A stretch of DNA of 64,000 nt from Candidatus Limnocylindrales bacterium (GTDB lineage Bacteria > Moduliflexota > Moduliflexia > Moduliflexales > JAUQPW01). The position numbers and the translations under genes were made by a program. The notes beneath the pieces were generated by a model. That model was not told the origin of the DNA and searched no databases. It saw only the letters and a list, made by a program, of their open reading frames with translations. Below are positions 23,405 through 41,564 of this stretch, one piece after another; position 1 is the first letter of the stretch, and the number at the start of each line of letters is the position of its first letter. The stretch covers positions 62,001 through 126,000 of the forward strand of contig DATMBG010000032.1 of the NCBI GenBank assembly GCA_035559535.1. The letters are read 5' to 3'.

Positions 23405-25207
23405 CTACTTCCGACCTTCACCCCTCATCAATTCTGCAACGTGGTGAACGAACCGAGCTGCCGTACCGATGATCCCTTTATAGTGGGGGATCTTGTACAT
23501 AGGCCGTTTCAGTTCGGGATGGTCTTCTACATAAGCTTTGATTTCTTCCAAAGTATAGCCGGTAGCCTCCAAAACACGTTTGAATTCTTCTTTGGCTTTG
23601 ACTTTCGCTTCACCCAAGGCCATTTGAACCCGACTATGGGCATTGATCTCACCTTCACCGGAGGTTTCAATGGGGAGGTAAATCATATCCTTGTACATAC
23701 CCATCACGGCGGATTGAACCCCATCACTTTGGGTACTGGGCATACACCCAAAAGGCTTCAGCGAGAGAACCATGTGACAGAGGTCTTTATTATGGTAGTA
23801 GATATTTTTAGCCACTTCCAAATGACCTTCTCCTCCGCCTGCACGGGAATTATACATGGGATGGGCAATTCGTTGGAGTTCGTATTGATCCGTTAACCCG
23901 TGGGCCGTTCCGCCCAAAGCTTCCCGGAGTCGGTTGTATTCCCGGGCAAAGATTTTCTCGGCGATGGTCAGTTGGGCCAGCTTGCTATAGCAATTCTTGA
24001 GCGCCTTGACCCGTTTATGATATTCCCACCACTCTGGAGTGGGTTCCCCTTCTATCAGGCCCTTCCGGTCCCGAATCCCTTGCTTGGCTTGATGGATCAT
24101 ATAATTAATCCAGGTAGCAATGGGTTCTACCAGAACCTCTGCACCTTCCCGTTCCAGGAATCGGAACATATTAAAATTTCCATCGCCTTCCGTGGTTTGG
24201 GCCCAGAATTCACCGGTAATTTTTACAATGGGTTTCACCCGGGTACGATCGACTTCGATCTGGTTGAAGCGATCCCGAACGTTTCTAAGTGCACCGGTAT
24301 AGTAATCACTGAACAATTGGTTTAAAAACTTTCCAATCATCTCTGCGGTATCCATCAAATTGGGCATTTTATTGAGAATTTTTCCCAAAATCCCCTTGAT
24401 TTCCCAATATTCCTTCTTTTTCATAACCTCGTGCATGTAATCCATAATTTCCCGCAGAGCCAGATCGGTTGCGCCTGGTTTGACCTCAAAAGGCCGAATC
24501 TGGTAGGAGACCTCGTTGATTAAGTCCCCGATATTGAAGGCGTTTAGCAATCCCATAAAGAACTTAACGTTCATCTCAAGTCCGGCTTCCACTTCACTCT
24601 GATTTAACCCACCGGATTGCTGGAACAATAAAACCCGGAACCCATCAAATCCTGCATTTTGTAACGCCAGTCGGTATTCGGCCTCATACATTCCGAACCG
24701 GCAAGGTCCACAAGCCCCGGCGGTAATGAACACATAGTTATCGATAATTTCCTTTTTGGACAGACCCTGGGCTTCTAAATTTTGGAGATACTTCACCAGG
24801 TTTCCAACGGTAAAGTAAGTGGGATTGCATTGACCGTTGTTGCCATACTCCTTCCCGAGTTGGAAGGATTTTACATCCGGGGTGGGTAGATAGTTGGGTT
24901 TATAGCCCAGTCCTTCCAGGGCTCCATGGACCAGGTGTTCGTGCTTCCAGGTTAATCCACCAAAAAGAATGGTCGTATGACCTCGTTGGTCCCGGGTAAA
25001 GGGGTTTTCTTGGGGTCTTGTAAAGTGTTGAACGGTCTTTTTCTGAATACCTGCTTCCCTTTCTAACCGGGCTCTTTCTTCATTCAACCTTTGTTGAATT
25101 AAATCTTCCAGAGAATGACCTGGAGCAGGGTCCTTTTTGTAGGGGTGACCGTTGGGATTTCCGTTTTGTTCTATGACCGGTAAGCTCATATGAGAAGAAT
25201 CTGCCAT
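23405..25207 (-). CDS. 2-hydroxyglutaryl-CoA dehydratase-like (HgdB/double-cubane type) protein
   Basis: The 600-aa cytoplasmic protein resembles the part of large CoA-activase proteins related to the dehydratase D-component. Cysteines are placed as potential cluster ligands: C127 (G-Q-C-N-P-T-Y), C166 and C169 (A-G-A-C-G-P-C-R-F-G) and C488 (F-G-C-M-P-S). The first ~65 residues are a charged, low-complexity extension. It is upstream of the giant activase, 76 bases apart, on the same strand. Dehydratases and double-cubane cluster proteins of this superfamily receive electrons from ASKHA activases; the substrate here is unknown, and no CoA-dehydratase C-component or acyl-CoA gene is nearby. 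Confidence 0.78.
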   Translation of the reverse strand: MADSSHMSLPVIEQNGNPNGHPYKKDPAPGHSLEDLIQQRLNEERARLEREAGIQKKTVQHFTRPQENPFTRDQRGHTTILFGGLTWKHEHLVHGALEGLGYKPNYLPTPDVKSFQLGKEYGNNGQCNPTYFTVGNLVKYLQNLEAQGLSKKEIIDNYVFITAGACGPCRFGMYEAEYRLALQNAGFDGFRVLLFQQSGGLNQSEVEAGLEMNVKFFMGLLNAFNIGDLINEVSYQIRPFEVKPGATDLALREIMDYMHEVMKKKEYWEIKGILGKILNKMPNLMDTAEMIGKFLNQLFSDYYTGALRNVRDRFNQIEVDRTRVKPIVKITGEFWAQTTEGDGNFNMFRFLEREGAEVLVEPIATWINYMIHQAKQGIRDRKGLIEGEPTPEWWEYHKRVKALKNCYSKLAQLTIAEKIFAREYNRLREALGGTAHGLTDQYELQRIAHPMYNSRAGGGEGHLEVAKNIYYHNKDLCHMVLSLKPFGCMPSTQSDGVQSAVMGMYKDMIYLPIETSGEGEINAHSRVQMALGEAKVKAKEEFKRVLEATGYTLEEIKAYVEDHPELKRPMYKIPHYKGIIGTAARFVHHVAELMRGEGRK

Positions 25208-26463: not shown

Positions 26464-28545
26464 TTATTGGTCGAGCTCAATCTGAATTAACGAGGAGGTT
26501 CCAACTTCTGGCGCCACGGGTTCCTTCAGAACGTATTGGCGGTACAGTTTGGCCATTTGTGCATTTTCCCTCTCCCGGCGCAGTCTCTCTTCCCGGGCCT
26601 TTCGCTTTTCTTCCCGGGCATTCTTGGCAATACCTAATTCATCCAGGTCGGTCTGGGCCCCTGCTGCCACATGTTCTGGATTTACAACCAGGGAGTGCTC
26701 GGTACTCTCCAGATTCACCTTTCTCCCACCGGTAAAAATTTCATGCCGCCCATGCTCCTCATACCATTTGGCCAATGTGGCTGTCATATGCATTTTCTCG
26801 ACAATCTTCCGCCAGCCTACTCCGGTGTTATAAGCACAAAACGAAATCTCTCCCTCTTGCGTAGCATAGGGAATAATACATTGCTCGGTTCGTCGAAAAT
26901 CATAATTAAACAAATCCTGGAACCACATTCCGGCTATAAACAGGAAATTCCAACGATCGCTCCGCCGCTTCTGAATGTCTTCCATGGTCCGATCGGCGGT
27001 TACCTTACCGTAATTTCTTCCCGTTGCCCCGAAGGACTTATCGAACTTCACCAGCAGATCCGTCAGCTTGAAATGGGTAGGAGCCTGGAAGGGATCGTAG
27101 TTCCGGATCAGGGACAGGGCCATCCCCAAAATCGATAACCACTTCCCTCGGGCTGCATCATTTACCTTGGCTATGTCTCTGGCTAAACGATCTGCGTTCA
27201 AGAAAGCCGTAACCGGTACCGCCTCTTTGGTTTCCTTATCTACCATGATGGCCATTCCAACCCCACAGTTGGGATGACACCCACAACTCACCTGCCCCCA
27301 GTCTGCTTGAGGTCCATGCACCAGATCTGACCAATCAGAAAAGGTACTTATAAACGAAATGGGGAACCAATCCCGGGCAGGTTCTCCAATACCCAGTTGA
27401 TTTTTCACATCGTGTGCCAGATGGGACAGGGTATACCGTTGGGCCATGCGCCGTTCATCGGTAATGTTTTCATCTCGACCGGTAAAAGATACCGGTTGAA
27501 AGGCACAAAATGCGATCTTTTTCGGGTTATCCAGGGCAAATTGGATGATCCTTCCCACCTGTTCATTGTTGATGCCGTTCACAATGGTAACCACCAGGAT
27601 AATCTCAACCCCTGCATTATGCAGATTCTCAATCGCTCGCAATTTTACATCAAAAAGATTACCCACCCGCCGGTGTGAGTTGGCGGCATTGCCGATTCCA
27701 TCAAATTGTAGATAAACATACCGTAAACCGGCTTCTGCGGCTTGCTTGCAGAATTCCGGACTCTTGGCAAACTCAATCCCATTGGTGGCGGCCTGTACAC
27801 TGTTATACCCTAACTTGCGGGCATAACGGATGGCTTCAATAAAGTGGGGAGATAACGTCGGCTCTCCACCCGAGAACTGAACCGATAACTGACGACGGGG
27901 CTTAATAGAAATAGCATTGTCCAGAAGCGTTTTGATTTCTTCCCAGGTCAATTCATGGACAAATCCCACCTGATTTGCATCCATGAAGCAGGGATCACAC
28001 ATCATGTTGCAGCGGTTGGTCAGGTCAATGGTTAAAACGGCCCCACGCCCACTCTTGATGGTACTGCTTCCATGATTATGAAGTGCCTCATCATTATGGG
28101 CCCGAATATCTCGACCGGGGAATACCTCCTCCAGATGCCGGGTGAAGGCGGGATCAATGGATAGGACATCTTCAAAGTGCCCATGCTTTGGACAATCTTT
28201 AACCATCAAAATCTTACCATCTCGCTCAATAATCTGAGCCTTAATCTCCCCAATCCTTTCCGTACGCAGAATTTCTTGAGGAAGTTTACCGTTGAGAATC
28301 TGCTCCCTGATTTCAGGAACACATCTCGGACATAAAGAATCCGTGGTTCTCGGCCATCCCAGGGTCGGTCTGGTTTTTTGATAAGACTTTAAGAGCGGCT
28401 TGTCAGACCACCGGGGAATGAAGGAAGGGTTAGGTCTGATACGATTAAGCCTCTCAAACACAAACCAGGCTGCATTGGCCACATAGGTTAATCCCTTTTC
28501 TACATACTTCACCGGTTTATGCTTACGTTGATGGGCAACAATCAT
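26464..28545 (-). CDS. Tes-like radical SAM enzyme (tetraether-lipid-synthase-like)
   Basis: The 693-aa protein has an N-terminal cysteine group (C72-P-R-C75 and D-C118-P-K-H), the radical SAM motif C179-x3-C183-x2-C186, and G-G-E-P. The later blocks G-C-H-P-N-C-G-V-G...V-P-V-T-A-F-L-N, F-N-Y-D-F-R-R-T-E-Q-C-I-I-P-Y-A and I-S-F-C-A-Y-N-T-G complete the architecture of the archaeal MJ0619/Tes group, which joins lipid tails to make membrane-spanning tetraethers; bacterial relatives exist. The C-terminal ~90 residues are a charged extension not expected in the core family. The ATG has AAGGAG 7 bases upstream. First gene of the 28.5-19.7 kb series. Lipid coupling is a family-level inference; other MJ0619-like activities are possible. 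Confidence 0.65.
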   Translation of the reverse strand: MIVAHQRKHKPVKYVEKGLTYVANAAWFVFERLNRIRPNPSFIPRWSDKPLLKSYQKTRPTLGWPRTTDSLCPRCVPEIREQILNGKLPQEILRTERIGEIKAQIIERDGKILMVKDCPKHGHFEDVLSIDPAFTRHLEEVFPGRDIRAHNDEALHNHGSSTIKSGRGAVLTIDLTNRCNMMCDPCFMDANQVGFVHELTWEEIKTLLDNAISIKPRRQLSVQFSGGEPTLSPHFIEAIRYARKLGYNSVQAATNGIEFAKSPEFCKQAAEAGLRYVYLQFDGIGNAANSHRRVGNLFDVKLRAIENLHNAGVEIILVVTIVNGINNEQVGRIIQFALDNPKKIAFCAFQPVSFTGRDENITDERRMAQRYTLSHLAHDVKNQLGIGEPARDWFPISFISTFSDWSDLVHGPQADWGQVSCGCHPNCGVGMAIMVDKETKEAVPVTAFLNADRLARDIAKVNDAARGKWLSILGMALSLIRNYDPFQAPTHFKLTDLLVKFDKSFGATGRNYGKVTADRTMEDIQKRRSDRWNFLFIAGMWFQDLFNYDFRRTEQCIIPYATQEGEISFCAYNTGVGWRKIVEKMHMTATLAKWYEEHGRHEIFTGGRKVNLESTEHSLVVNPEHVAAGAQTDLDELGIAKNAREEKRKAREERLRRERENAQMAKLYRQYVLKEPVAPEVGTSSLIQIELDQ

Positions 28546-29026: not shown

Positions 29027-30925
29027 ATGGGATTCCTTACGAAATTTCTAAAAAGCCTGATTCGAGAACCCGATCAAAAAAAAGTAAAGATCAAGAAGAT
29101 CAGACCTCTGGGTAAAATTCGGCCCCGACATCTTCAAAAGGGGGGTTACTATATTGGATTAGAAATCTGGAAGCGGGGGTTAGAACAGTTCTTACGGGCC
29201 AATCAACGAGAAACCAAAATTGAGCGTGAGCGGGATCAGAATCTCCCCAGGGTTTACTATCAACTTCCGGATAGTGTGACCATTTCGGTAGGTAAAGAAA
29301 TCCGCAAGCACCTTAATTTACTCGAAGAGGATGCTGAAAGGGCCATTCAAGAAAGATATCAGGCCTTTGTCCGGGGTCATGCCCAGTATCGCGAAGAGGA
29401 TCATCGAGAGGGGATTCAGGTTCACTGGCAACTTAATCTCTACCTTCCCGATACGGGCTTTACTGCAGCCGTTCGAAGGTCTCCTTCCGACGAGGAGGTT
29501 GCGGCAAAATTGCGGCTTATAGAGCCTAAAGATGTTTTGTTGGAAACCAATGAATATCCTATTTTGAAATCCCAGGGAAATCTCTTTGTAGGAGCAGACG
29601 TGGGGGAGAATAATTTTCAAATTGAGACCCTGGCCAGGGATCATTTTTCCATCAACCGAATAGGAAAGAACTTCCAGGTTTTTCACACCGGATCTGAGGG
29701 AAAAACCGAAATTCAACGGGAGGGGAAAATTATTTCCCTTTCTTCAAAGGGGGATCGATTAATCCACGGAGATCGAATCCTGGCCTATTATGGGGGAACA
29801 ACCTATGTGTTTGAATTTACCGATCTGGAAGTCCCCTCATACCGGGAGCGGAGAGTTGCCTATCTCGAAGAACGAGCTTTTTATATCGTCACCCAGGATA
29901 CCTATGAATACCCCCGCGTATTCTTGGGGGAAATTCCCTCCGGTTCGTATCAGGCAGGTCCCTTTCTCCGGTGGTTTCTCCCAGAGTTTGAAAATGAAAA
30001 CTCCCCCGTGGTCATTTTTTATGAACCGACCAAGAAAAGGTTTTATCTTAAAACCTTATCCGAAAAAGTTCCGGTTAAGATAGGACCAGAGGAAATCTTC
30101 GTAGGAAAACATTTAACCCATGGGGATGTTCTGCAAATTGGAACCACGGAGCTACTTTTTGAAGAGTTTCAAAGCGAGGGGGTCGTACGTCTGGAAATCC
30201 TCTCCCCCCTGGTAGAGCATCCCCCTTACCGGTTAACCAAACAGGTTACGAAGCTCCGTCCTATTACCCTTTCGGGAAGTCAGAGTGGTCCCGGGTTTAT
30301 TTCTCTCCAGGATCCTAAACTTCCAGATGTGGCCGCACAAATTTACTATCAAGAACCCTATTTCTGGATCGAGATCGGTCAAAGAAAACCGGAAAAGTTG
30401 GCCTTCGGGCAGGAAATTCAACTGGGCCAATCGATCCTGCGAATTATGCGGACGTCTCTCCACCCCCGGTGGAAAGCCCGATTTACCTTGATTAACCGGG
30501 ATCAACGAAGGATTTATCCGCTGGCCAATATCCTTCAGGAAAGTTATGAAGAAAATAAGTGTATTCTGGGAGATGGGCCTTCCTTGACCCGTAATAGCTT
30601 TTGGTTAGAGGATGATATGGATGTGATATCGGAACAACATGCCCAGTTCAAAGCTAAAAGCCGGAAACTGGTCGAGATAACAAACTTAAGTACTTCCCGA
30701 CCTATCTGGATCCTGTCTCCCGGTGGGATTTTTTTAAAAGAACTTCTATGGGCAAAACCTGATGTCCATGGAAATATCATTTTACCCGGGGAGTCTATGG
30801 AACTACGCAAAAACCAACGAATTGTCATCGGACCCTATGAATTCGAGTATAATGGACCGGGTCCTTCTTCACTCCTGGGGTACGATGAAGCCGAAGCGAA
30901 GTTGAAAGATCCGTGGGAGAACTAG
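29027..30925 (+). CDS. Multi-FHA protein with FhaA-like N-terminal domain
   Basis: A 632-aa cytoplasmic scaffold. Residues ~1-155 resemble the DUF3662 domain of mycobacterial FhaA (start with a long basic segment, then G-L-E-I-W-K-R-G-L-E-Q-F-L, and V-H-W-Q-L-N-L-Y-L-P-D-T-G-F). The rest is made of about four FHA-like beta modules: ~190-275 (R-D-H-F-S-I-N-R), ~275-385, ~395-495 and ~515-620 (E-Q-H-A-Q-F). Most modules lack the full G-R/S/H/N-G phosphothreonine-binding set, so not all may bind phosphopeptides. It is followed by a Ser/Thr kinase and a PP2C phosphatase, which argues for a phospho-dependent scaffold. Confidence 0.8.
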   Translation: MGFLTKFLKSLIREPDQKKVKIKKIRPLGKIRPRHLQKGGYYIGLEIWKRGLEQFLRANQRETKIERERDQNLPRVYYQLPDSVTISVGKEIRKHLNLLEEDAERAIQERYQAFVRGHAQYREEDHREGIQVHWQLNLYLPDTGFTAAVRRSPSDEEVAAKLRLIEPKDVLLETNEYPILKSQGNLFVGADVGENNFQIETLARDHFSINRIGKNFQVFHTGSEGKTEIQREGKIISLSSKGDRLIHGDRILAYYGGTTYVFEFTDLEVPSYRERRVAYLEERAFYIVTQDTYEYPRVFLGEIPSGSYQAGPFLRWFLPEFENENSPVVIFYEPTKKRFYLKTLSEKVPVKIGPEEIFVGKHLTHGDVLQIGTTELLFEEFQSEGVVRLEILSPLVEHPPYRLTKQVTKLRPITLSGSQSGPGFISLQDPKLPDVAAQIYYQEPYFWIEIGQRKPEKLAFGQEIQLGQSILRIMRTSLHPRWKARFTLINRDQRRIYPLANILQESYEENKCILGDGPSLTRNSFWLEDDMDVISEQHAQFKAKSRKLVEITNLSTSRPIWILSPGGIFLKELLWAKPDVHGNIILPGESMELRKNQRIVIGPYEFEYNGPGPSSLLGYDEAEAKLKDPWEN

Positions 30926-30930
30926 CGGGG

Positions 30931-30993
30931 AACAGAGGGGTGAGGAAGTGTGGGGAGATAGAAATCCCCCTCACATTTCTACACCCTCCTGTT
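30931..30993 (+). repeat. Intercistronic inverted repeat between FHA and kinase genes
   Basis: The arm 30931-30958 (AACAGAGGGGTGAGGAAGTG...) pairs imperfectly with 30964-30993 (...CACATTTCTACACCCTCCTG). It starts six bases after the FHA stop and ends just before the kinase start. Confidence 0.55.
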
Positions 30994-31000
30994 GGTTTTA

Positions 31001-32602
31001 ATGACCGGTATTACTGCGGAAGAATTTATCCGACGCAAATCCCATAATCGACTCAAATTCGTAAGGGAAGTGGGTCGGGGTGGCTTTGGAACCGTCTATC
31101 AATTCGAGGATACGGCCACCCAGCAACCGGTCTGCGTAAAGGTTCTAAGTAATGATCTGTTTAACCGATTAGGAAAAGATGAACAGCGCCTGAAGTTCTA
31201 CGAACAGGAAATTCAAAATCTAGAGGCCTACCGGTTTAAATCCAATATCGCCCATTTATACGCACCCCTTTATGAAGATGAAACTTTTCAGTTTTCTCAA
31301 GGAGATCCTTACCTTTTCCTGGCCATGGAATTTGTAGAGGGGGAAGATTTAGGTTATGAAAAAAGTGCCATTGATAACTTCCGAATAGACCATACCGAAT
31401 TGGCCATTCATCTTATATTCCAGCTCTGTTCGGCCCTCCATAGCATCCACCTTCGAGGTCAATACCATCAAGATCTGTTTCCCGATAACCTTCGGGTTAG
31501 CATGGGTCCTTCAGGGAAAAAAGATCATCTGGTGGTATTGGACCTGGGTCATGTCCGGGCTTATAAACGGAAGTCCCACAGTGCCCTCTCCAATATCGGT
31601 ATGTACCATCCTCCTGAAACCATTTATAGTGGTTTCGAAAAATTCACCTCCATCCGTAATGAACGGATTCGATACTTCGACCGGAGCGATATTTTTTCCT
31701 TGGGGGCCCTTTTCTATGAAATGCTTCAACTGGCTCAGCATCCAGATGACCGCGGAGGACCCTTTACTTTTTTTAAAGATATTGCGGAGTCTTTCGAACT
31801 CTTTATTTTGTTTTATGAAACGTATACTGAAACAAGCGACCCGGATCTTTCCCAAAACTGGCGGGCTTGCTTCGAGAAGTACGATAAGCGAGGCCTCATT
31901 CCCAAGCATGAAGAAAAAAGAGAGAAGTTTAAAGATCTGCTCCAGGAGGTAGGTTTGGACACCCGCATTGCTGACAGCCTCCACCTCTTACCGTCCCATC
32001 GCCCGGATATCGAGACCCTTCTAACCATTTTCTGTAATTACTTCCTCAAACAAGGAAAAAGTCTCTTCCGAATAGGAGAACCTGCCGGCTATACCAAGTG
32101 CCTTTACTGGCTTGAACGGATCACCCGCCACTTTCGAGAAGTAGAGCAAGAGGCAAAAAGTAATGACTTTATATCTCTTCGGGATAACCCCATGCTCAAC
32201 CATATTCAACGTAACCTGAAAGTTTATATAGAGGCTTTGCTGGGGATTGGAAAGAGTTATTATCTCTTAAAGGATCCCTCCTGGGGAACCCATTTCAAAA
32301 AAGCCTGGTTTACCTTTAACCTGTTTGATCATACCCTTTCGATTTCTCAGAAGAAAGATATAGGGGCTAAAGCAGCCATCAATTACGCGTTTTATTTATC
32401 TGAGTTGAACAGACACCAGGAAGCCATAGAAATCCTGTGTCAGGTGGGAAGACCTTTACATCCTTCTCTACAGCCCATTTTTTTCAATAATCTGGGCTCG
32501 CTTTATCAACAAATTGGAAAAACCGATGAAGCCGAACAGTGCTTTAAACAGATGAAAATGGAGAGAAAAATGACTTCTATGCCACTGGGAGATGAGATTT
32601 AG
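31001..32602 (+). CDS. Ser/Thr protein kinase with C-terminal TPR-like region
   Basis: The 533-aa protein (ATG at 31001; a TTG at 30992 is the alternative) has a eukaryotic-type kinase domain (~20-300) and a helical TPR-like tail (~360-530). Visible motifs are the glycine loop V-G-R-G-G-F-G-T-V-Y, the ATP-lysine K47 (V-C-V-K-V-L), H156-Q-D158-L-F-P-D-N-L in place of H-R-D, D181-L-G-H in place of D-F-G, and P-P-E in place of A-P-E. The catalytic Lys, Asp and Asn remain, so activity is likely, but the HRD arginine is lost, so activation-loop control would differ. There is no membrane segment, unlike PknB-type kinases. It is flanked by FHA and PP2C genes. Confidence 0.85.
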   Translation: MTGITAEEFIRRKSHNRLKFVREVGRGGFGTVYQFEDTATQQPVCVKVLSNDLFNRLGKDEQRLKFYEQEIQNLEAYRFKSNIAHLYAPLYEDETFQFSQGDPYLFLAMEFVEGEDLGYEKSAIDNFRIDHTELAIHLIFQLCSALHSIHLRGQYHQDLFPDNLRVSMGPSGKKDHLVVLDLGHVRAYKRKSHSALSNIGMYHPPETIYSGFEKFTSIRNERIRYFDRSDIFSLGALFYEMLQLAQHPDDRGGPFTFFKDIAESFELFILFYETYTETSDPDLSQNWRACFEKYDKRGLIPKHEEKREKFKDLLQEVGLDTRIADSLHLLPSHRPDIETLLTIFCNYFLKQGKSLFRIGEPAGYTKCLYWLERITRHFREVEQEAKSNDFISLRDNPMLNHIQRNLKVYIEALLGIGKSYYLLKDPSWGTHFKKAWFTFNLFDHTLSISQKKDIGAKAAINYAFYLSELNRHQEAIEILCQVGRPLHPSLQPIFFNNLGSLYQQIGKTDEAEQCFKQMKMERKMTSMPLGDEI

Positions 32603-32714
32603 GTAAGTTGTCTGTCATAGCTTTGTAGTAAAGATCCGGATGGCTTGTTTGCACAGATTATAGCCGGGCTTCAGGGCGAGGAAAGGAGGACTTCTACAAA
32701 ACAACGGACAACGA
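32603..32714 (+). repeat. Intercistronic inverted repeat with CAACGGACAAC word
   Basis: A weak inverted pair between GTAAGTTGTCTGTCATAGCT (from 32603) and a right arm at 32692-32712 containing CTACAAAACAACGGACAACG. The word CAACGGACAAC also occurs in the hairpins at 49198-49273 and 54727-54790, supporting a common family. Confidence 0.4.
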
Positions 32715-32725
32715 GGGATGGATCC

Positions 32726-33580
32726 ATGAAGATTTCTTGTTTTGCCATATCCTGTCCTGGTAAGGACACGGTGATCAATCAAGATCGATTTTTGTGTTTT
32801 AAAGAGATCTCAGATAAAATTCTTTTATGGGAAGATGGCTTTTTTAGTCTTCGAACCCAGGAGTATGTCCGGTATGGATATCTTTTTGCCATTGCCGATG
32901 GGCTTGGTGGCCATAATGCCGGGGAAGTAGCCAGTAACCAGGCCATTCGGCTTCTTTGGAAGCGGTATTATTCCGGTCACCCGGATCCCTCCCCGGATAT
33001 CCTGGATCGGCTCAGGGAAATCTTTCGCCAGGCCCATGAAGAGATCAGGATCCTTTCCCGTTCTAAATTTGAATACCGGGGAATGGGTACGACCCTTACC
33101 GCCGCTATCTTAAAGGAGGAAACCCTCTACTGGGCCCATATTGGAGACAGCCGCCTCTATAGAATTAATGATTCCCTGGGAATCCAACAGCTTACCGAGG
33201 ACCATACGTTAATAGCCCGTGGGATCCGGGAAGGTTTTTTAAACCAGGAAGATATTACAAAAAATCATAAAGGAGCACTTTACCAGGCTATTGCCGTAAG
33301 TCCCCAACTGGAAGTTCAAGTCGGTCAGCAAAGGCTCTCTCCTCCAGAGTGGATCTTGCTCTGCTCCGATGGGCTTACCGATGTGCTGGATGAAGGGGCA
33401 ATGGAAGAATTATTTAGAGGCCAGATCCTCAGGGAGGAAAATAGAAGGGCCTTTTCAAACGTACAGGCCCCTGTTTTGCTTTCTATGAGTCCAAAGGAAG
33501 CCTGTGAAAGGCTTGTAAAAGCTGCGGATAAGATGGGGCGGGAAGATGATGTGACCATTGTGGCGATTAAAATCGAATAA
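32726..33580 (+). CDS. PP2C-family Ser/Thr phosphatase
   Basis: Removes phosphate from Ser/Thr of proteins, here probably targets of the adjacent kinase. The 284-aa protein has every PP2C motif: N-Q-D-R near residue 20, A-D-G-L-G-G-H-N-A-G-E, G-M-G-T-T-L-T-A-A, H-I-G-D-S-R-L-Y, L-T-E-D-H-T, L-L-C-S-D-G-L-T-D and E-D-D-V-T-I-V. The aspartates that hold the two metal ions are present. I chose the ATG at 32726 (MKISCFAIS), since the upstream TTG at 32645 would run through an intergenic repeat. There is no membrane segment, so it acts in the cytoplasm. Confidence 0.92.
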   Translation: MKISCFAISCPGKDTVINQDRFLCFKEISDKILLWEDGFFSLRTQEYVRYGYLFAIADGLGGHNAGEVASNQAIRLLWKRYYSGHPDPSPDILDRLREIFRQAHEEIRILSRSKFEYRGMGTTLTAAILKEETLYWAHIGDSRLYRINDSLGIQQLTEDHTLIARGIREGFLNQEDITKNHKGALYQAIAVSPQLEVQVGQQRLSPPEWILLCSDGLTDVLDEGAMEELFRGQILREENRRAFSNVQAPVLLSMSPKEACERLVKAADKMGREDDVTIVAIKIE

Positions 33581-33588
33581 AATCTCAC

Positions 33589-34116
33589 ATGATGCGCATT
33601 TTCTCTTTAGCTACTTTATCCAGCCTGATTTTTCCTCTTCTTTTTCTGAATGGTTGTGGAGAGGATAAAAATAGTTTTACCATACCCATACCCCCCGGGG
33701 CTCCCATATCTTCCGGTATTCTGACGGCAAATCCGGGAACTGTAGAAGCCGAAGGAACTTCTGTGATCAGTGTCACTTTAGAATCTATTTCGATACCTCC
33801 CCAGAATCTGATTTTTAATTGGTCTGCCCAACGGGGAACGATTACGGGAAACGAAAGTACAGTCCTTTATCAGGCCCCGACTACCCCGGGAGAGGATACG
33901 GTATCGGTCCAGGTCATCGATGCGAGTTCACCGGTAGGAACTCAGGTTATTGCAACGGGAAATATTGTCCTGATGATAATACCCAGGCCTACGCCGACAC
34001 CAACCGGATCTCCAACTCCTTCGCTTACCCCTTCTCCTGAAACAACCCCCACCCCAGACTCCCAGGAGAAAGAAGAGAGAAAGCTCCTGAATAAAGCTCC
34101 CAGGTTGGCTTACTGA
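33589..34116 (+). CDS. Lipoprotein with Ig-like domain and truncated Pro/Thr-rich stalk
   Basis: The 175-aa reading frame starts with a lipoprotein signal (hydrophobic core then L-F-L-N-G-C, lipidated cysteine near residue 23). An Ig/BIG-like beta domain follows at ~40-130 (I-L-T-A-N-P-G-T-V-E-A-E-G-T-S, F-N-W-S-A-Q-R-G-T-I). A T-P-T-P-x-P repeat region then begins and the frame stops at 34116. The Pro/Thr-rich coding pattern goes on for another 620 bases in shifted frames (next entry), so this is probably only the 5' part of a longer gene. It starts 8 bases after the phosphatase stop, in the FHA/kinase cluster. Confidence 0.75.
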   Translation: MMRIFSLATLSSLIFPLLFLNGCGEDKNSFTIPIPPGAPISSGILTANPGTVEAEGTSVISVTLESISIPPQNLIFNWSAQRGTITGNESTVLYQAPTTPGEDTVSVQVIDASSPVGTQVIATGNIVLMIIPRPTPTPTGSPTPSLTPSPETTPTPDSQEKEERKLLNKAPRLAY

Positions 34117-34739
34117 CTCCCACGCCCGTTGAATCCTCGGCGCCTCTCTTTACATCCCCTAGGGGGGAAACACCCAGTTCCGGAATTACACCAACCCCCC
34201 GAATTTCTTCTACTCCTCCTCCGGTTAGCACGCCCCGGCCAACTCCCATACCCCGAAGAACCCCTGTTCCTACCCCCATGCCAAGTCCTACTTCGGTTTT
34301 GGTTCCAGGTCCCATTGAAGTTCCTTTACCTACCCCCACTTCAACTCCGATCCCGGTTCCCAATCCAACCAGGTTCCTACCTCAACTCCAATTCCCACAT
34401 CCACGCCGACTGCAACTCCTCATCCGACATCTGTACCCCCCATGATGCCCACTGCCGTTCCAACCTCCACTCTTTCCGGTGAGCCAACCCCTTTCCCTAC
34501 TTTAACTCCCGTGACTCTGCCAACGGCTACACCGACGGTTTTACCCAACCGACTCCTATCTCTCTACCCTCAAAAGTGCCTGTTCCGGTTCCATCGGCAA
34601 CACCTGTAATCCTTCCAGATCCCACCAAAACGTCTAAACCGGGTAAGACTCCGAAACCCAGTAAAACTCCGAAACCCCCCAAGATGATGAGGACGATGAA
34701 GGGGAAGAAGATAATGGTCCCGGTCGCAGTAATAATTAG
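34117..34739 (+). pseudogene. Frameshifted continuation of the Pro/Thr-rich lipoprotein
   Basis: Conceptual translation stays in P/T-rich repeats with no stop in three successive frames: 34105-34367 (V-P-T-P-M-P-S-P-T), 34372-34545 (I-P-T-S-T-P-T-A-T-P) and 34550-34675 (K-P-G-K-T-P-K-P-S-K-T-P). A fourth frame gives an acidic end, D-D-E-D-D-E-G-E-E-D-N-G, closing at TAG 34737-34739. All four shifts have the same sense, each explained by one missing base. Restoring four bases would give one ~384-aa protein. Candidates are genuine decay, slippage in repeats, or base undercalling in the assembly. Confidence 0.65.
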
Positions 34740-34988
34740 TACTTCTTAATTTACTTAAACTTTAATCGACCGGGGTCTGTTCCCCATATTCTTCAAAAAA
34801 TCGGTCTTTGACCCTAGTGGGATTTACTCAAGCTTCAGGGAAGTGGCCTATGGGCGGCCATCCCAGAATCTAAAAATCCCCCGGCTCCGGCAGGGGTAAT
34901 ACCAATCTGTAGAAGTATCGAAAAAGAAATTTGCCTTTAAGGTAAATTGATACCATTTTAAAAGTAGGATAAGGTGAAAGGAAACATT

Positions 34989-36311
34989 ATGGGATACGTG
35001 AAAAACTTTTGGGGTGGTATTATTTTTCCTGGGATAATTATAGCCGGTTTTATCGTTCAGGCTTTCGCTTTAACCAATGAAGAGACCTCTTCACAACTTC
35101 AATTTAACTTTAATCTTCCCGGAGCCAGGGCTTTGGGACAGGGTGGTGCCTTTCTTTCCACGGCAGATGATGCCACGGCTTCGGCGGCGAATCCCGCCGG
35201 GCTTGTCATACCCCGACGACCCGAATTTTTAACCGAAATTCGATTCACCCGTTTTACAACCTTAGATGTTCCTGTGGAAGGGACTCCAACCTTAAATCCC
35301 AATGGTCAACCAACAATCCAGATTTTTACAGAAGATTTCACCAGCGGAACGATTACTTCTCCTTCCTTTTTAAGCTTTGCTTATCCAGCTTCAACCCAGC
35401 GCTTTTCTCTGGCTGTATTTCGGCAAGAGCTGGCAAATTTTACCCAGGATTTTGAAATAGGTCGCATTGTGATTCCTATCACGGGAGCCAGCGATGTTGA
35501 GATATTTCCGGTCAGCAGCCACCTGGATTTCAAAATAACCAACCTGGGGGGTTCCATGGGAGTCGAACTGGCCCGGGGTTTTTCCATTGGGGTAACGATC
35601 CAGGCATCGACGCTCAATATAGATTCCGAGCTAACCCGATTTGATCCCACCCGGATCAATCAGGTTTTTAATTCAACAGTCGATGAATCCGCTACGGCCC
35701 CGAGCCTTATTTTGGGTGGCTTATGGAAGCTTTACCGAACCCAAACACCCCTCAAAGAATTGTCGGTAGGAGGGGTATTTCGAAGTGGACCTCGATTCGA
35801 TTTAACCGAATCCATCAATTTTAGTATCGTTCCAGGGCAAACAGGTACCACTGTAGATTATACGGTCAAGGTGCCGGATGTTTATGGGGCAGGAGCTTCT
35901 TATCGTCAAGGAGGTCTGTTAACTTCAGATGATACCATCACCTTCTCCCTGGATATTATTCACATTCAATATTCGGATTTATTGGAAAATTTCCAAATTA
36001 CGCTGGCCGGTGCCAGTCCTGAAGAATTTACTGTTCAGGATGCCACTCAAATCCACGGAGGGGTGGAGTATAGCTTTTTTTCCGGAACAACCCTTATTTC
36101 TTTGAGGGGAGGATTCTTTACCGATCCAGATCATAGCATTACCTTCCAGGGAAATGATCTTCGTTTTCTGGTTCTTTTTCCAGAACGGGAGGATCAAACC
36201 CACGTTACTTTTGGTGGGGGAATTTCTCTGGGGAGACTCCGTATTGATGGAGCCGTTAATTTAGCGAATTCTATTTCTGAAGGGGTTATCACGGCGTTTT
36301 ATCGGTTTTAA
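34989..36311 (+). CDS. FadL/OmpP1-like outer-membrane beta-barrel protein
   Basis: The 440-aa protein has a signal peptide ending near A-F-A-L-T, then a hatch-like N-terminus, F-N-F-N-L-P-G-A-R-A-L-G-Q-G-G-A-F-L-S-T-A-D-D-A-T-A-S-A-A-N-P-A-G-L, typical of FadL/TodX and PorV relatives. The remaining sequence alternates as beta strands and ends in a barrel-type Y-R-F. The ATG at 34989 with AAAGGA upstream is preferred to a GTG at 34974. FadL proteins carry hydrophobic molecules across the outer membrane; PorV relatives serve secretion. Its position between a lipoprotein and a PEGA protein suggests an envelope partner of the kinase cluster. Confidence 0.8.
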   Translation: MGYVKNFWGGIIFPGIIIAGFIVQAFALTNEETSSQLQFNFNLPGARALGQGGAFLSTADDATASAANPAGLVIPRRPEFLTEIRFTRFTTLDVPVEGTPTLNPNGQPTIQIFTEDFTSGTITSPSFLSFAYPASTQRFSLAVFRQELANFTQDFEIGRIVIPITGASDVEIFPVSSHLDFKITNLGGSMGVELARGFSIGVTIQASTLNIDSELTRFDPTRINQVFNSTVDESATAPSLILGGLWKLYRTQTPLKELSVGGVFRSGPRFDLTESINFSIVPGQTGTTVDYTVKVPDVYGAGASYRQGGLLTSDDTITFSLDIIHIQYSDLLENFQITLAGASPEEFTVQDATQIHGGVEYSFFSGTTLISLRGGFFTDPDHSITFQGNDLRFLVLFPEREDQTHVTFGGGISLGRLRIDGAVNLANSISEGVITAFYRF

Positions 36312-36396
36312 GGACCTCCGGTCCATGTCCGTTGTGACTTCTCATAGACTCCAAACCATAGACCCAAATCGTCTACAACAGCAACGGATAAAAACA

Positions 36397-37989
36397 ATGC
36401 GTAAAGCAACTTTCCTGATCGTCCTTTTTTTAATAACCTGGGGGCAAGTGGCAAAGGCCGCCAAGGAGTGGTATGACTATTACCAAGATGGGCTTCAGGC
36501 CATGAAAAATCAGAGATGGCGGGAGGCCGTAGAAAATTTTGAGAAAGCCGTTGCCGAAAACCCACAGCCAAGAAAGCGGGTCGTAACGCCGGGGAATTGG
36601 ATTCTGACCGATTATTATCCTTACCTTCAACTGGGGATTGCTTACCTTCGTCTTGGACAGCCGGAAATAGCTGAAAAATACCTGAATAAAGCCTTAGCCT
36701 TTGAGGTAGAACCCAGGGTGGAGGTTTATCGGTATTTAGCCGAAGTAGATGAGATAAAGAAGCGCTCCCTGGAGAGACGCTATACGGACTTAAAGGAAGA
36801 AAAAAATAGCCCGGAGCGTGGATTACCTCTTCCGGAGACCCCGACACCGGTACCCATCAAGGTTCCAACTCCCACTCCGGTTCCGACTCTGGTTCCAACC
36901 CAGATTCCAACTCCTACGATTCTGGAAGTGGATTTAACCCCGGTTCAAAAACCCCCTCCTATGGTTCCACCCCTTCCCACCCCCCGGATTCCAGAGACTG
37001 TCATTCCAACTCCTACACCCCTGGTACTGACAGGAACCTTATTTATCGATAGTGTTCCTTCTGAAGGAACGGTTCTCTTAAATGGTCAAAAAAGAGGGGA
37101 AACTCCGTTAAACCTCATTGTAAAAGAGGGTGTTTACGAGGTAGAGATTATAAAACGAGGGTATCCCGGGTATCGAACCAGGATAACCGTTCAACCTAAT
37201 CAATTGAATAAGTACCTCTACGCCTTGGGGGAATATGATTGCGATTATGATTCCTCGGCAGATCGAAATCCCGCCCGGGCTATTAATCTGGAAACTTTTA
37301 TGAAATCAGATCAGGCCGCGGAGGTGGATTATGACAAAGGGGATTGCACGGACTGGTTTAGTGTAACAATTCCCAGGGAGGGAAAATGGACCTTTGAGAT
37401 TCAACTCCTCGATAACCTGAAAGCCAATATCGAAGTGGGGGTTTATGGTCCGGATAACAGTACAAAACTTCTGGGTACAGGGACCCGAGACTTCAATCAT
37501 ACGGAAATGATTCGTTTTACCCCCGAGACTTTTATACCCCCCGGCCTTTACTATCTCAGGATTCATGCCAGGGGTAGGGGAGACCGGGCCCTGTATAAAC
37601 CCATGTATGAACTTACGGAAGAAGTCGTTTTAGTTGAAACTCCCGTTGTAGCTGCTCTAACGCCAACCCCCCTTCCAACTTCTACGCCGCTCCCAATCCC
37701 AACGGCACAAGCCGTTCAAGAGTCCAGACCCAACACCCAATGGCCTGAGATTTCCATTACCATTCCCTATGCTCTTCTGGCTCTGGCTTCCGTCGCGTTT
37801 TGTCTGGCTTTTGTGGCGATTGTGATGACCCTCAAATCAAAATCCAGATATCCGTCCAGACCCAGACCGCCTTTTGAGGGGATCAGGAAAAATCCCCCGG
37901 CGGGACCCCTCGAAAAATCTAAATCAGAAATTCTAGAGGAAGAAGATGAAACCTTATTTTTAATGAAAATGGATCTTCGAGATAAATGA
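36397..37989 (+). CDS. TPR and PEGA-domain protein with Pro/Thr stalk and C-terminal membrane anchor
   Basis: The protein is 530 aa from the ATG at 36397 (MRKATFLIV); an ATG at 36325 would bury the signal sequence. Order: signal peptide to ~A-K-A; TPR-like helices ~25-135 (Y-Y-Q-D-G-L-Q-A-M-K-N-Q-R-W-R-E-A-V-E-N-F); P-T-P-x-P-x-P stalk ~140-210; PEGA domain ~212-280 (G-T-L-F-I-D-S-V-P-S-E-G-T-V-L-L-N-G); a beta domain ~285-405; a second short Pro/Thr stretch; and a membrane helix near 455-480 followed by a basic then acidic tail. The tail should face the cytoplasm, where it could meet the kinase or FHA scaffold. PEGA domains bind cell-surface structures. Confidence 0.8.
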   Translation: MRKATFLIVLFLITWGQVAKAAKEWYDYYQDGLQAMKNQRWREAVENFEKAVAENPQPRKRVVTPGNWILTDYYPYLQLGIAYLRLGQPEIAEKYLNKALAFEVEPRVEVYRYLAEVDEIKKRSLERRYTDLKEEKNSPERGLPLPETPTPVPIKVPTPTPVPTLVPTQIPTPTILEVDLTPVQKPPPMVPPLPTPRIPETVIPTPTPLVLTGTLFIDSVPSEGTVLLNGQKRGETPLNLIVKEGVYEVEIIKRGYPGYRTRITVQPNQLNKYLYALGEYDCDYDSSADRNPARAINLETFMKSDQAAEVDYDKGDCTDWFSVTIPREGKWTFEIQLLDNLKANIEVGVYGPDNSTKLLGTGTRDFNHTEMIRFTPETFIPPGLYYLRIHARGRGDRALYKPMYELTEEVVLVETPVVAALTPTPLPTSTPLPIPTAQAVQESRPNTQWPEISITIPYALLALASVAFCLAFVAIVMTLKSKSRYPSRPRPPFEGIRKNPPAGPLEKSKSEILEEEDETLFLMKMDLRDK

Positions 37990-38037: not shown

Positions 38038-39399
38038 TCACCGTTCCTGTAATCCATACTCCTTCAACTTCCGCCATAGTGTGCTCTTAGAAATTTGTAA
38101 AATTTGGGCCGTTTTTTTCTTGTTTCCACCACACTGTTGAAGAACTTCCAGGATGTAGTTTTTCTCATTCTCTGCAAGGGACACCAGCTTACTTGAAGGC
38201 TTAGAGGGGATTGAGGGGAAGGTCTGTTCCAGGCCCTGAATATGCCGGGGGAGATTTTCAGGTAGGATAATTTCCCCGGTAGCCAGAGCCACAGCTCGTT
38301 CTATCACATTTTCCAGTTCCCGAACATTGCCCGGCCAGTCATATCTAACCAATAGATCCACTGCCTCTTGGGAGATAGACCGAATCGGTTTATGCATCTT
38401 ATTACGATATCTTTCTAGAAAGTGATTTACCAGGAGCGGGATATCATCTTTACGCTCTCGTAGAGCTGGAAGTTTGATGGGAATGACGTTAAGTCGGTAG
38501 AAGAGATCTTCTCGGAAGGTTTTTTCTTGAATGGCCTGTTGTAAATCTTTATTGGTAGCCGCAATAAGCCGGACATCTACATGGAAAGATTTATTATCTC
38601 CAATCCGACGGATCTCTCCGCTTTGAAGAAATCGAAGTAGTTTGACCTGGATGGCCGGAGAAATTTCTCCGATTTCATCCAAAAAAATGGTTCCCTGGTG
38701 GGCTTCTTCGAAAAGACCTTTTCGATTTTTAATAGCTCCGGTGAAAGCCCCTTTGATGTGGCCAAAAAATTCACTATCCTGAAGCCCTTCGGGTAAGGCA
38801 CTACAATTGACGATCACAAAAGGCTTGTCTTTCCTGGGACTATTATTGTGAATGGTTTGGGCAATAAGCTCTTTACCTGTACCACTCTCTCCCAGGATCA
38901 AAACGGTACTATCGGTTTGACAAACCTGGGTGACCAGCTTCAAGATATCCAGCATTTTAGGCGAATTCCCCACAATATTTTCAAATTTATATCGCTCTCG
39001 AACCTGCTCTTCCAGGAGTTTGACCCGCTCGGTCAAGGTCTTCCGTTCCAATGCCTTATTAACAACCAGTACGATTTCCTCGGGCTCGAAGGGTTTTGCA
39101 ATATAGTCATAAGCCCCTATTTTCATGGCCTGCACGGCAGAATCCACCGTACCATAAGCGGTTATCACAATGACTTCCGTTTGTTGGGATATCTCTTTGA
39201 CCTTTTGGAGAACCTTAATCCCATCGATCTTTTCCATTTTCAAATCTGTAATAACCAGATCATAGGTTTTCCTTTCCAGAAGACGGAGGGCTTCTTCTCC
39301 GCAAGAAGCCTCTTCGACTTGATAACCTACCCGTTTTAAGGTAATTTTCAGAGTCGTTCGGATGCTCTTTTGATCATCAACCAGTAAAATTTCTGCCAC
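38038..39399 (-). CDS. NtrC-family sigma-54 response regulator
   Basis: The 453-aa transcription activator has three parts. The receiver (1-120) has phosphorylation site D52 and D8-D9. The AAA+ domain (~135-370) has Walker A GESGTGKE at 165-172, the sigma-54 contact loop G-A-F-T-G-A at 212-217 and D-E-I-G-E. A Fis-type HTH closes it (I-L-Q-I-S-K-S-T-L-W-R-K-L-K). The start codon is GTG at 39399. It follows the histidine kinase gene across an 80-base gap filled by a 30-bp hairpin. Its targets should carry sigma-54 promoters; none is obvious in the gaps I read. Confidence 0.93.
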   Translation of the reverse strand: MAEILLVDDQKSIRTTLKITLKRVGYQVEEASCGEEALRLLERKTYDLVITDLKMEKIDGIKVLQKVKEISQQTEVIVITAYGTVDSAVQAMKIGAYDYIAKPFEPEEIVLVVNKALERKTLTERVKLLEEQVRERYKFENIVGNSPKMLDILKLVTQVCQTDSTVLILGESGTGKELIAQTIHNNSPRKDKPFVIVNCSALPEGLQDSEFFGHIKGAFTGAIKNRKGLFEEAHQGTIFLDEIGEISPAIQVKLLRFLQSGEIRRIGDNKSFHVDVRLIAATNKDLQQAIQEKTFREDLFYRLNVIPIKLPALRERKDDIPLLVNHFLERYRNKMHKPIRSISQEAVDLLVRYDWPGNVRELENVIERAVALATGEIILPENLPRHIQGLEQTFPSIPSKPSSKLVSLAENEKNYILEVLQQCGGNKKKTAQILQISKSTLWRKLKEYGLQER

Positions 39400-39407
39400 G
39401 CTTTAAG

Positions 39408-39481
39408 AAGACCAGAGGCGAAAGGTGAAAGACAAAAAACAAAGGTTTTTATTTTATCTTTTACCTTTCGCCTCTGGTCTT
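39408..39481 (-). repeat. 30-bp intercistronic hairpin spanning the kinase stop codon
   Basis: The 19 bases AAGACCAGAGGCGAAAGGT (39408-39426) are perfectly complementary to 39463-39481. Pairing extends inward to about 30 bp (39437/39452) with two G-U-compatible mismatches and a 14-base loop. The right arm overlaps the histidine kinase stop codon and the left arm ends 9 bases from the regulator GTG. Confidence 0.8.
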
Positions 39482-41564
39482 ATAAAGGAAGGGTTACGAT
39501 AAAGGTCGTCCCTTTCCCTATTTCACTCTCTACCTCCAGTATTCCTTTATGGGCTTCTACAATCCGATGGGCGATGGGTAAACCGAGACCGGTACCTTGG
39601 GGTTTACTGGTGTGAAAAGGTTCAAAAATATTGGCAACTTCCTCTGGAGCAATCCCGATACCGGTATCAGAGATTCTCACCTGAAGCCCCTGGAAATCTC
39701 GCGTGGAAACGGTCAGTATTTCGATTTTGATAACTCCCTCATCCGGCATTGCTTCCAGTGCATTAATCAGCAGATTCCAGAAAACTTCATGCATCTGATC
39801 GGCATCTAAACGAACTTTGGGTAACTCAGGCTCACACCGCAGGTGGATTTTTATACGATCATTCCATCGGGTATCCTTTTTGAGGAGTCGAAGAACCTCT
39901 TCCATAACCTCCCGAATATCACTTTCCAAAAATACAGGTTCTCGAGGACGGGCAAACTGTAAGAAATTGGTAACAATCTTGTTGAGACGGTCGGTTTCCT
40001 CCACGATCACTCCCATTAATTCCAGATCTTCTTCGTTTAAATCTACATCGCGTTTAAGAAGCTTGGCCGAATTGGAGATGGCGACCAGAGGATTTCGGAT
40101 CTCATGGGCGAGACCGGCGGCCAGTCCTCCGATGGACGCAAGCCATTCCGATCTTCGAACCTGTTCCTGTAATTTTTTCTGCTCGGTGATATCCATGGCA
40201 AATCCTACCAGGGAAGCTTTCTCACCCCGGTCATTCTTAAGAACGGTGGCCGAAGAGTATAACCATCGGACATCTCGTTTGTTTTGGTGAATCATTCGAA
40301 ATTCAAGGCTTCTCCCCTTTCCTTCAAAGACCTTTCTCTGGGCATCAAAAACGCGATCCCGATCCTCTGGGTGAATCTGGCTAACCCATAAATTCTTGTT
40401 CCGGTAGTAATCTTCCGGTCGATATCCCAATATCTTCTCCACGACAGGGTTGAGATAGGTAATGCTTCCATCGGGAGAAACAATATAGATAATAAAATCC
40501 TTCGTACTCTCGATGAGGGATCGATACTTCTCCTCGGATTCTTTAATTCTATTGAACAGGCGTGTATTTTCAATAGCAATGGCCAGTTGGGGGGTTATCT
40601 GTTTAACCAGGTCAAATTGATCTTCTGAGAAGTTATTTACCTTTCGGCTGGCAAAACTGATGGTACCGATGACCTCTCCTCGACAAAAGAGGGGATACGT
40701 GACACTGGAGCGAATCCCTTCTTTCAACAACTTGGTCATCCCCCAATAGGGGCTCTCCGCCACATCCTGGATCAAAACAGGTTTACCGGTATCGACCACT
40801 TCCCCCAGATGGGTCTCGGCTTTAGGAATGAAAGTACCCTCTTGCAAGTCACCGGATTCTAAACTTTCATAATACTTGACCAGGGCATAAATCTGAAAGC
40901 CCGTTTTTTGTTCGTCTAAAAGACTCACGGTCATCCGATCGAAATCGAAAACTTTTTTTAACTCGGCCCCGATGGCTTCATAAACGTCTTTAATATCCAG
41001 ACTTGAGGCGATGATTTTATTTACATTGCTGATAACCTCTTTTTCCTTATCAATTCGCTTGCGTTCTGTAATATCCCGGGAAATCCCCAAAACATAAATA
41101 ACCTGACCCGTCTCGTCCCGGATTGGATCCAAGCTGGTACTAAACCAGAATTCTTTACCCGGAATCTTATAGGTGTGCTCGTGAATAGTGCCTTCTCCGG
41201 TTCCAAAAACTTTTTGAATATGGGCCATGTATAAATCAGCTTCTTTTTTGGAGAAGAGTTCATAGATATTTTTTCCTACAAAATCGGTGGGATTCCCGCC
41301 AATAATACGGGCTGCTATACGGTTCATGGATATACAATTTCCTTCCGAGTCTACGGTAAAGATGGCATCTCCCGCACTGTCTACCAGGGTTTTATACTTG
41401 GCTTCAAATTCCCTGAGTCGTTTGCTCTCCTCCTTAACCTCGCGTTCCAGTTGCTCAGCCAAAATCCGATACTTCTCCACGGACTTCTTGATTTCCAGAT
41501 ACTCCTTGCTAAGCTCTTCATAGGCTTTAACCAGGTCCTTAAATCCTTTGGTGGACTTTTTCAT
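39480..41564 (-). CDS. Cytosolic sensor histidine kinase with PAS-GAF-PAS input
   Basis: The 694-aa protein has no membrane segment. Domain order: coiled coil (~5-60), PAS (~60-175, N-C-I-S-M-N-R-I-A-A-R-I-I-G), GAF (~185-335), PAS/PAC (~345-465, W-L-Y-S-S-A-T-V), HisKA with H487 in H-E-I-R-N-P, then the ATPase with N-x-L-I-N-A-L-E-A-M and D-T-G-I-G-I and G-T-G-L-G-L-P-I. The GAF domain contains no obvious haem or cluster cysteines. It is the cognate partner of the NtrC-type regulator immediately downstream. It follows the HpaB-like gene on the same strand, so a flavin or aromatic-metabolism signal is possible but unproven. Confidence 0.92.
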   Translation of the reverse strand: MKKSTKGFKDLVKAYEELSKEYLEIKKSVEKYRILAEQLEREVKEESKRLREFEAKYKTLVDSAGDAIFTVDSEGNCISMNRIAARIIGGNPTDFVGKNIYELFSKKEADLYMAHIQKVFGTGEGTIHEHTYKIPGKEFWFSTSLDPIRDETGQVIYVLGISRDITERKRIDKEKEVISNVNKIIASSLDIKDVYEAIGAELKKVFDFDRMTVSLLDEQKTGFQIYALVKYYESLESGDLQEGTFIPKAETHLGEVVDTGKPVLIQDVAESPYWGMTKLLKEGIRSSVTYPLFCRGEVIGTISFASRKVNNFSEDQFDLVKQITPQLAIAIENTRLFNRIKESEEKYRSLIESTKDFIIYIVSPDGSITYLNPVVEKILGYRPEDYYRNKNLWVSQIHPEDRDRVFDAQRKVFEGKGRSLEFRMIHQNKRDVRWLYSSATVLKNDRGEKASLVGFAMDITEQKKLQEQVRRSEWLASIGGLAAGLAHEIRNPLVAISNSAKLLKRDVDLNEEDLELMGVIVEETDRLNKIVTNFLQFARPREPVFLESDIREVMEEVLRLLKKDTRWNDRIKIHLRCEPELPKVRLDADQMHEVFWNLLINALEAMPDEGVIKIEILTVSTRDFQGLQVRISDTGIGIAPEEVANIFEPFHTSKPQGTGLGLPIAHRIVEAHKGILEVESEIGKGTTFIVTLPL

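Follow-up and report, generated by a model that had tools for sequence, protein, structure and literature searches.

How might a bacterium with two membranes pass information about its outer membrane (OM) to a soluble serine/threonine kinase in the cytoplasm? The question is raised by a six-gene cluster at positions 29027 to 37989 of the window, the 64,000-nucleotide stretch that we analyzed from a Candidatus Limnocylindrales bacterium (GTDB order Moduliflexales; GenBank assembly GCA_035559535.1, contig DATMBG010000032.1, positions 62,001 to 126,000). Open reading frame (ORF) calling returned six co-directional ORFs, all on the + strand, as a preliminary description of this DNA had reported; they encode an FHA protein of 632 amino acids, a kinase (536), a PP2C-type phosphatase (311), a lipoprotein (175), a FadL-like beta-barrel (445) and a TPR-PEGA protein (554). 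Start codons and transcript boundaries were inferred from the sequence and topology from hydropathy. The ratio of nonsynonymous to synonymous substitution rates (dN/dS) lay between 0.04 and 0.17 for all six genes (for the lipoprotein, over the N-terminal 150 codons only), and the cluster is thus not a set of chance ORFs. Conservation was examined in 385 genomes, four of them from this order and two of those four congeneric; the lineage is isolated, its relatives in this set being one congener (metagenome-assembled genome [MAG] JAUQPW01) and two further genera of the order, whereas the other genomes share with it no rank below the taxonomic domain. We suggest, with confidence evenly balanced for and against, that the cluster encodes an envelope-to-cytoplasm Ser/Thr phosphorylation module placed under an OM sensor formed by the FadL-like barrel and its TPR partner.

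The barrel and the N-terminal domain of the TPR-PEGA protein constitute a gene pair that is conserved across phyla. The window barrel (34974..36311, + strand), described as a FadL/PorV-like OM protein, has no Pfam match of its own and is assigned as FadL-like because its relatives match PF03349 and its profile matches BamG (PDB 9hiv, E 6e-10); the match to PorV_fam (E 1e-8) is below that model's cut-off. Its N-terminus reads 'GARALGxGGAF..ADDATA..NPAGL'. The barrel profile gave full-length matches in G003, G351 and G356 and weak ones elsewhere, in 16 of the 385 genomes in total, and a scan of named genomes with the FadL protein returned the congener MAG only. The TPR-PEGA gene (36325..37989, + strand; likely start about 36397) encodes an N-terminal signal, a domain bearing the signature 'WYxYY ... 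YYPYxxLGxAY' (the WYxYY-TPR domain, 36460..36768, + strand; 22 of 385 genomes at E <= 1e-6), a Pro/Thr stalk, a PEGA domain (E 3e-13, with TPRs also found by Pfam) and an unknown domain, followed by one C-terminal transmembrane (TM) segment at residues 483-501 and a tail of roughly 50 residues, so that the C-terminal helix and cytoplasmic tail noted earlier are borne out. Among 22 WYxYY-TPR loci counted outside the order, 11 have a FadL gene within 5 kb, always on the same strand, and such neighbors are spread over nine genomes besides those of the order; conversely, of 13 non-order genomes that encode the barrel, 10 encode the WYxYY-TPR domain as well (hypergeometric 7e-13, a value from which diderm bias is not removed). 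Several of these TPR proteins have a C-terminal CsgG domain, with PF03349 barrels as neighbors; we found no name for them, and they share the TPR domain and the FadL neighbor with the window protein but differ from it in that the latter carries PEGA, the TM segment and the tail and no CsgG domain. At one locus (L164:8002-15111, G043:C130), the barrel lies between WYxYY-TPR/CsgG and guanylate cyclase-CHAT-TPR-CsgG proteins. Within the order, three other loci encode related TPR proteins that have no FadL neighbor.

Kinases recur beside this TPR domain. A Ser/Thr kinase gene abuts the WYxYY-TPR gene at 5 of the 22 loci (one each in G351, G142 and G086 and two in G356), in four genomes that all lie outside the phylum. 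The probability of this frequency is 2e-6 to 2e-4 under a per-locus chance of 1-2.5%, a rate that we assumed rather than derived from kinase density in those genomes, and leaving out G351, which helped to build the TPR profile, weakens the value. One run in G356 (L168:8563-16335, C43) is operon-like, with genes for PP2C, trypsin-FHA, FHA, kinase-FHA, kinase-TM and WYxYY-TPR proteins and 4-bp overlaps between several of them; G351 has the order PAP2, FadL, TPR-Pro/Thr stalk-TM-STAND and ATPase-kinase, also with 4-bp overlaps. The kinase is soluble in the window and G351, where it is the TPR protein that spans the inner membrane; the arrangement is the opposite in G142, G086 and the two G356 pairs, whose kinases have a TM segment and whose TPR proteins have none beyond the N-terminal signal. 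Thus, in six of six kinase-TPR pairs, only one partner crosses the membrane, as a relay from the periplasm to the kinase would need, and the role of inner-membrane link previously proposed for the TPR-PEGA protein fits this pattern. All three components, the barrel, the TPR protein and a kinase, are combined only in the window, G142 and G351; the kinase-TPR pairs of G356 and G086 are without a FadL gene within 5 kb. We tentatively propose, while judging it the less probable outcome, that the FadL barrel and a WYxYY-TPR sensor define a cross-phylum class of trans-envelope signaling systems with lineage-specific partners, which would be a kinase (the window and G142), a STAND NTPase plus a kinase (G351), a caspase (G003) or a cyclase-CHAT protein (G043), the inner membrane being crossed in the kinase versions by the kinase or the TPR protein, never by both.

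The signaling enzymes of the window retain their catalytic residues. The kinase (30992..32602, + strand; likely start ATG 31001; Pkinase E 7e-21) is of the Hanks type with a C-terminal TPR-like region; the catalytic Lys, Asp, Asn and DFG-Asp are present as K50, D161, N166 and D184 (in DLG), invariant across six orthologues and paralogues, and the catalytic loop reads HQD in place of HRD, making it a non-RD kinase. It has no PASTA domain (PknB_PASTA_kin scores 60 bits against a cut-off of 450), and hydropathy detected no TM segment in it or in the phosphatase, in agreement with the earlier statement that the kinase lacks a membrane segment. The full-length kinase family is essentially confined to the order, with matches to the kinase domain only elsewhere. 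In the PP2C-type phosphatase (32645..33580, + strand; PP2C_2 E 8e-14), the metal-binding residues D47, D85, D242 and D301 are invariant, leaving the metal site intact, and the NCBIfam Stp1/IreP model matches at E 1e-48, under that model's cut-off. The likely starts of the phosphatase (about 32726) and of the TPR-PEGA protein lie downstream of those of the longest ORFs, as judged by alignment to the congener.

The FHA protein (29027..30925, + strand) fared differently. It belongs to an order-specific family, with full-length members only in the 4 order genomes of the 385 and one weak partial match besides (E 5e-7), and was previously described as a multi-FHA protein; sequence tools do not support this and recognize a single C-terminal FHA domain, for which the PF00498 match is itself subthreshold (20.1 bits; cut-off 20.7). 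Of the three phosphothreonine-binding residues, the window domain retains the Ser of S..H and has lost the Arg of GR (it reads ILGD) and the Asn of NG (it reads TSRP); in alignments, its paralogues retain LGR, S..H and SN. Thus, in the full write/erase/read set envisaged for this cluster, the kinase and PP2C catalytic residues are intact, but the FHA protein is not supported as an intact phosphothreonine reader. Searches of PDB with the family profile gave matches at chance level only. Assignment to the FhaA type (DUF3662) was considered and dropped, Pfam returning zero DUF3662/FhaA_N matches for six members at E <= 10. An AlphaFold2 model built from the window protein and one 98% identical sequence was discarded (predicted local distance difference test score, 32). 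Strong purifying selection acts on the gene (dN/dS 0.039), which, with the kinase gene (0.051), is constrained to the same degree as the neighboring NtrC and histidine kinase genes.

The trio of FHA, kinase and PP2C genes has an older counterpart, with paralogues in each of the four order genomes. A paralogous operon encoding kinase, PP2C and TPR-PEGA proteins is present in all four genomes of the order (L022, in this genome, and L069, L067 and L068). It is preceded in the two congeners by a gene for a PBP2-like transpeptidase, a linkage that G002 and G003 lack. In this genome (L022:103-3345, G000:C17), the transpeptidase is a 1080-amino-acid protein with a long N-terminal part lacking Pfam matches, and its gene precedes that of the paralogous kinase by 59 bp. 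The second FHA gene of this genome adjoins glycosyltransferase and sugar-nucleotidyltransferase genes, and in the two sister genera, an FtsW/RodA gene begins 20-80 bp downstream of the FHA gene and is followed by a DUF4388 gene. In the trees of all three families, the copies from the window make up a separate clade, and the remaining copies cluster across genera; the window FHA, kinase and PP2C genes are a matched, coinherited second set. Their counterparts are not all linked, and their linkage in the window therefore argues for a joint function. Elsewhere in this genome (L123:6140-15435, G000:C51), two related proteins, one of which matches the PP2C family, are encoded between two kinases.

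Between the trio and the barrel lies the lipoprotein gene (33589..34116, + strand), whose product has a signal peptide, a lipobox (LNGC), a possibly Ig-like domain of about 120 residues, for which the best Pfam support is Big_9 at E 0.03 only, and a short Pro/Thr stalk of about 25 residues, cut off where the ORF stops, at 34116. Beyond this point, Pro/Thr-rich sequence is encoded in other frames (34117..34750, + strand, delimited as stop-to-stop frames), a broken stalk and tail of the gene split over three frames and reaching about 34750. Two of the three envelope proteins had been credited with Pro/Thr stalks able to span the periplasm; that of the TPR-PEGA protein is present, but a periplasm-spanning stalk on the lipoprotein is unsupported by the present sequence. 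Assembly errors in low-complexity DNA may account for the frameshifts. The region is fluid between the congeners (window 34117-34970; congener L016:6730-8452), the congener having a second lipoprotein N-terminus and an imperfect inverted-repeat insertion where the window has frameshifted Pro/Thr coding. From the lipoprotein stop to the FadL start, there are 857 bp, and a single transcript is accordingly not assured.

In the mechanism that we propose, the FadL-like barrel and its periplasmic WYxYY-TPR/PEGA partner would serve as sensors of a ligand or of OM or cell wall state; the TPR-PEGA protein, anchored in the inner membrane by its C-terminal helix, would hold or control the soluble Hanks-type kinase through its cytoplasmic tail; and PP2C would oppose the kinase, with the FHA-derived protein serving as a scaffold on which the two assemble and the lipoprotein as an accessory envelope part. 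Phosphorylation would adjust envelope synthesis, probably that of peptidoglycan, an output suggested by the genomic company of the older set. We infer the joining of barrel, TPR protein and kinase in one pathway here, as well as the direction of signaling and the cell wall output. Several observations weigh against this interpretation. The six-gene order was found only in the congener, that is, in two congeneric MAGs (94-98% identity for the FHA protein, kinase, PP2C and barrel, 93% for the lipoprotein and 90% for the TPR-PEGA protein), so that conservation of the cluster as a unit fails beyond the genus, although the idea survives in the form of conserved modules. The 857-bp gap and the broken lipoprotein stalk part the signaling genes from the FadL-TPR pair; with the GR Arg and NG Asn lost, canonical phosphothreonine reading, and with it a reader role for the window FHA protein, is doubtful; and in G003 (L066:8007-11254, C17), a FadL-TPR pair occurs without a kinase and with a caspase (Peptidase_C14) replacing PEGA. 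A peptide in the cytoplasmic tail, ETLFLMKM (37948..37971, + strand), is similar to the tail (D[TA]EF[LM]IxL) of the TPR protein encoded by the paralogous operon, but the pattern was defined post hoc, and in a fairer test, it reached a joint rank of 4-7 among 314 proteins, with 170 of 20000 shuffles as good; as a putative docking signal, it is only nominally above chance and suggestive only.

The gap is also the starting point for an alternative that we regard as possible, albeit with a probability well short of even, according to which the cluster comprises two independent neighbors, a soluble FHA-kinase-PP2C operon, perhaps including the lipoprotein, and a FadL-TPR-PEGA transport or assembly pair that happens to share its strand. 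FadL-TPR pairs without a kinase, in G003 and several other genomes, and kinase-PP2C paralogues without FadL speak for it; yet the same TPR domain has a kinase gene immediately beside it in four other genomes, the TPR protein of the window resembles that of G351 in having a TM segment and a cytoplasmic part, and the six genes stay together in both congeners even though the lipoprotein region between them has changed. The company kept by the older set lends itself to another account, which we consider improbable: the ancestral set would control peptidoglycan synthesis like the actinobacterial pknB-pstP-fhaA-rodA-pbpA genes (PMC6554272), and the window set would be a specialized second copy, with the FadL-TPR pair as its client and not its sensor. 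The PBP2-like gene upstream of the paralogous kinase, the position of the FHA gene before FtsW/RodA in two sister genera and the identical tree pattern in three families are in keeping with this account, whereas the window cluster itself contains no cell wall gene, its kinase has no PASTA domain and its FHA protein has no DUF3662 match, and the penicillin-binding protein linkage does not extend to G002 and G003. Finally, the eroded FHA binding site and the frameshifted stalk could be taken as signs of a decaying duplicate on its way out, but this is very unlikely given the dN/dS values of all six genes, with the FHA and kinase genes as constrained as the adjacent NtrC/histidine kinase pair; moreover, the catalytic residues are intact and the frameshifts may not be real.

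Two described systems resemble the module proposed here. In the actinobacterial fhaA-fhaB-pstP-rodA-pbpA-pknA-pknB cluster, FHA, PP2C and Ser/Thr kinase genes are linked (PMC6554272), as they are in the window, and in related loci of the order, the same families adjoin PBP2-like and FtsW/RodA genes; in contrast to that cluster, the window has no RodA or PbpA, no PASTA kinase and no DUF3662, and has the FadL barrel and TPR-PEGA protein instead. In the TagQRST-PpkA-PppA-Fha pathway of type VI secretion systems (T6SS), OM TagQ and periplasmic TagR relay a membrane damage signal to the kinase PpkA, which is opposed by the PP2C PppA and accompanied by the FHA protein Fha (PMC10482370). A similar route from OM and periplasmic proteins to a kinase/PP2C/FHA set is what we propose for the window from its gene content, but the window kinase is soluble, the sensor proteins are unrelated and no linked T6SS structural genes were recognized; none were found among the annotated window proteins and their neighbors, no genome-wide search having been made. 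On the features compared, the window module belongs to neither system, and the cluster is best read as a variant of known kinase-PP2C-FHA systems. The window barrel resembles the FadL, PorV and BamG barrels in its profile match to BamG, its PF03349-matching relatives and its N-terminal motif, but it is paired with a WYxYY-TPR protein and signaling enzymes, and no type IX secretion or BAM genes were seen adjoining it. We did not find the combination of a kinase with PEGA, TPR, FHA and FadL proteins, or a FadL/TPR/kinase system, described in the literature, our access to subscription journals being partial. A phage defense role (PADLOC; PD-T4-6, MADS) was rejected, as the partner proteins are absent and there were only generic kinase-domain and weak PP2C matches; PADLOC gave no match for the FHA, lipoprotein, FadL or PEGA proteins.

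Around the cluster, an NtrC-type response regulator and a PAS/GAF histidine kinase form a pair (38038-41564) that is convergent to it and kept in the congener. Upstream, a 600-amino-acid protein with zero Pfam matches (23405-25207) is encoded between a BcrAD/DUF2229 activase-like gene and radical-SAM genes, one of which (26464-28545) has an HMPTM zinc ribbon. A further PEGA protein gene (L021:3427-4593) lies on the same strand shortly beyond the end of the window.

To our knowledge, few cases have been described in which diderm bacteria signal the state of the OM to cytoplasmic Ser/Thr kinases, TagQRST-PpkA being one. If our interpretation is correct, the cluster would point to a testable OM sensor in a large, uncultured bacterial group, and the barrel/TPR pair would have been coupled repeatedly to kinases and, in some cases, to phosphatases, FHA proteins, STAND NTPases or caspases; in addition, the actinobacterial-like linkage of kinase, PP2C, FHA and cell wall genes would extend to an unrelated diderm lineage. 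The envelope pair adjoins kinases in unrelated bacteria, and it may thus represent an undescribed route by which OM signals reach the cell interior.

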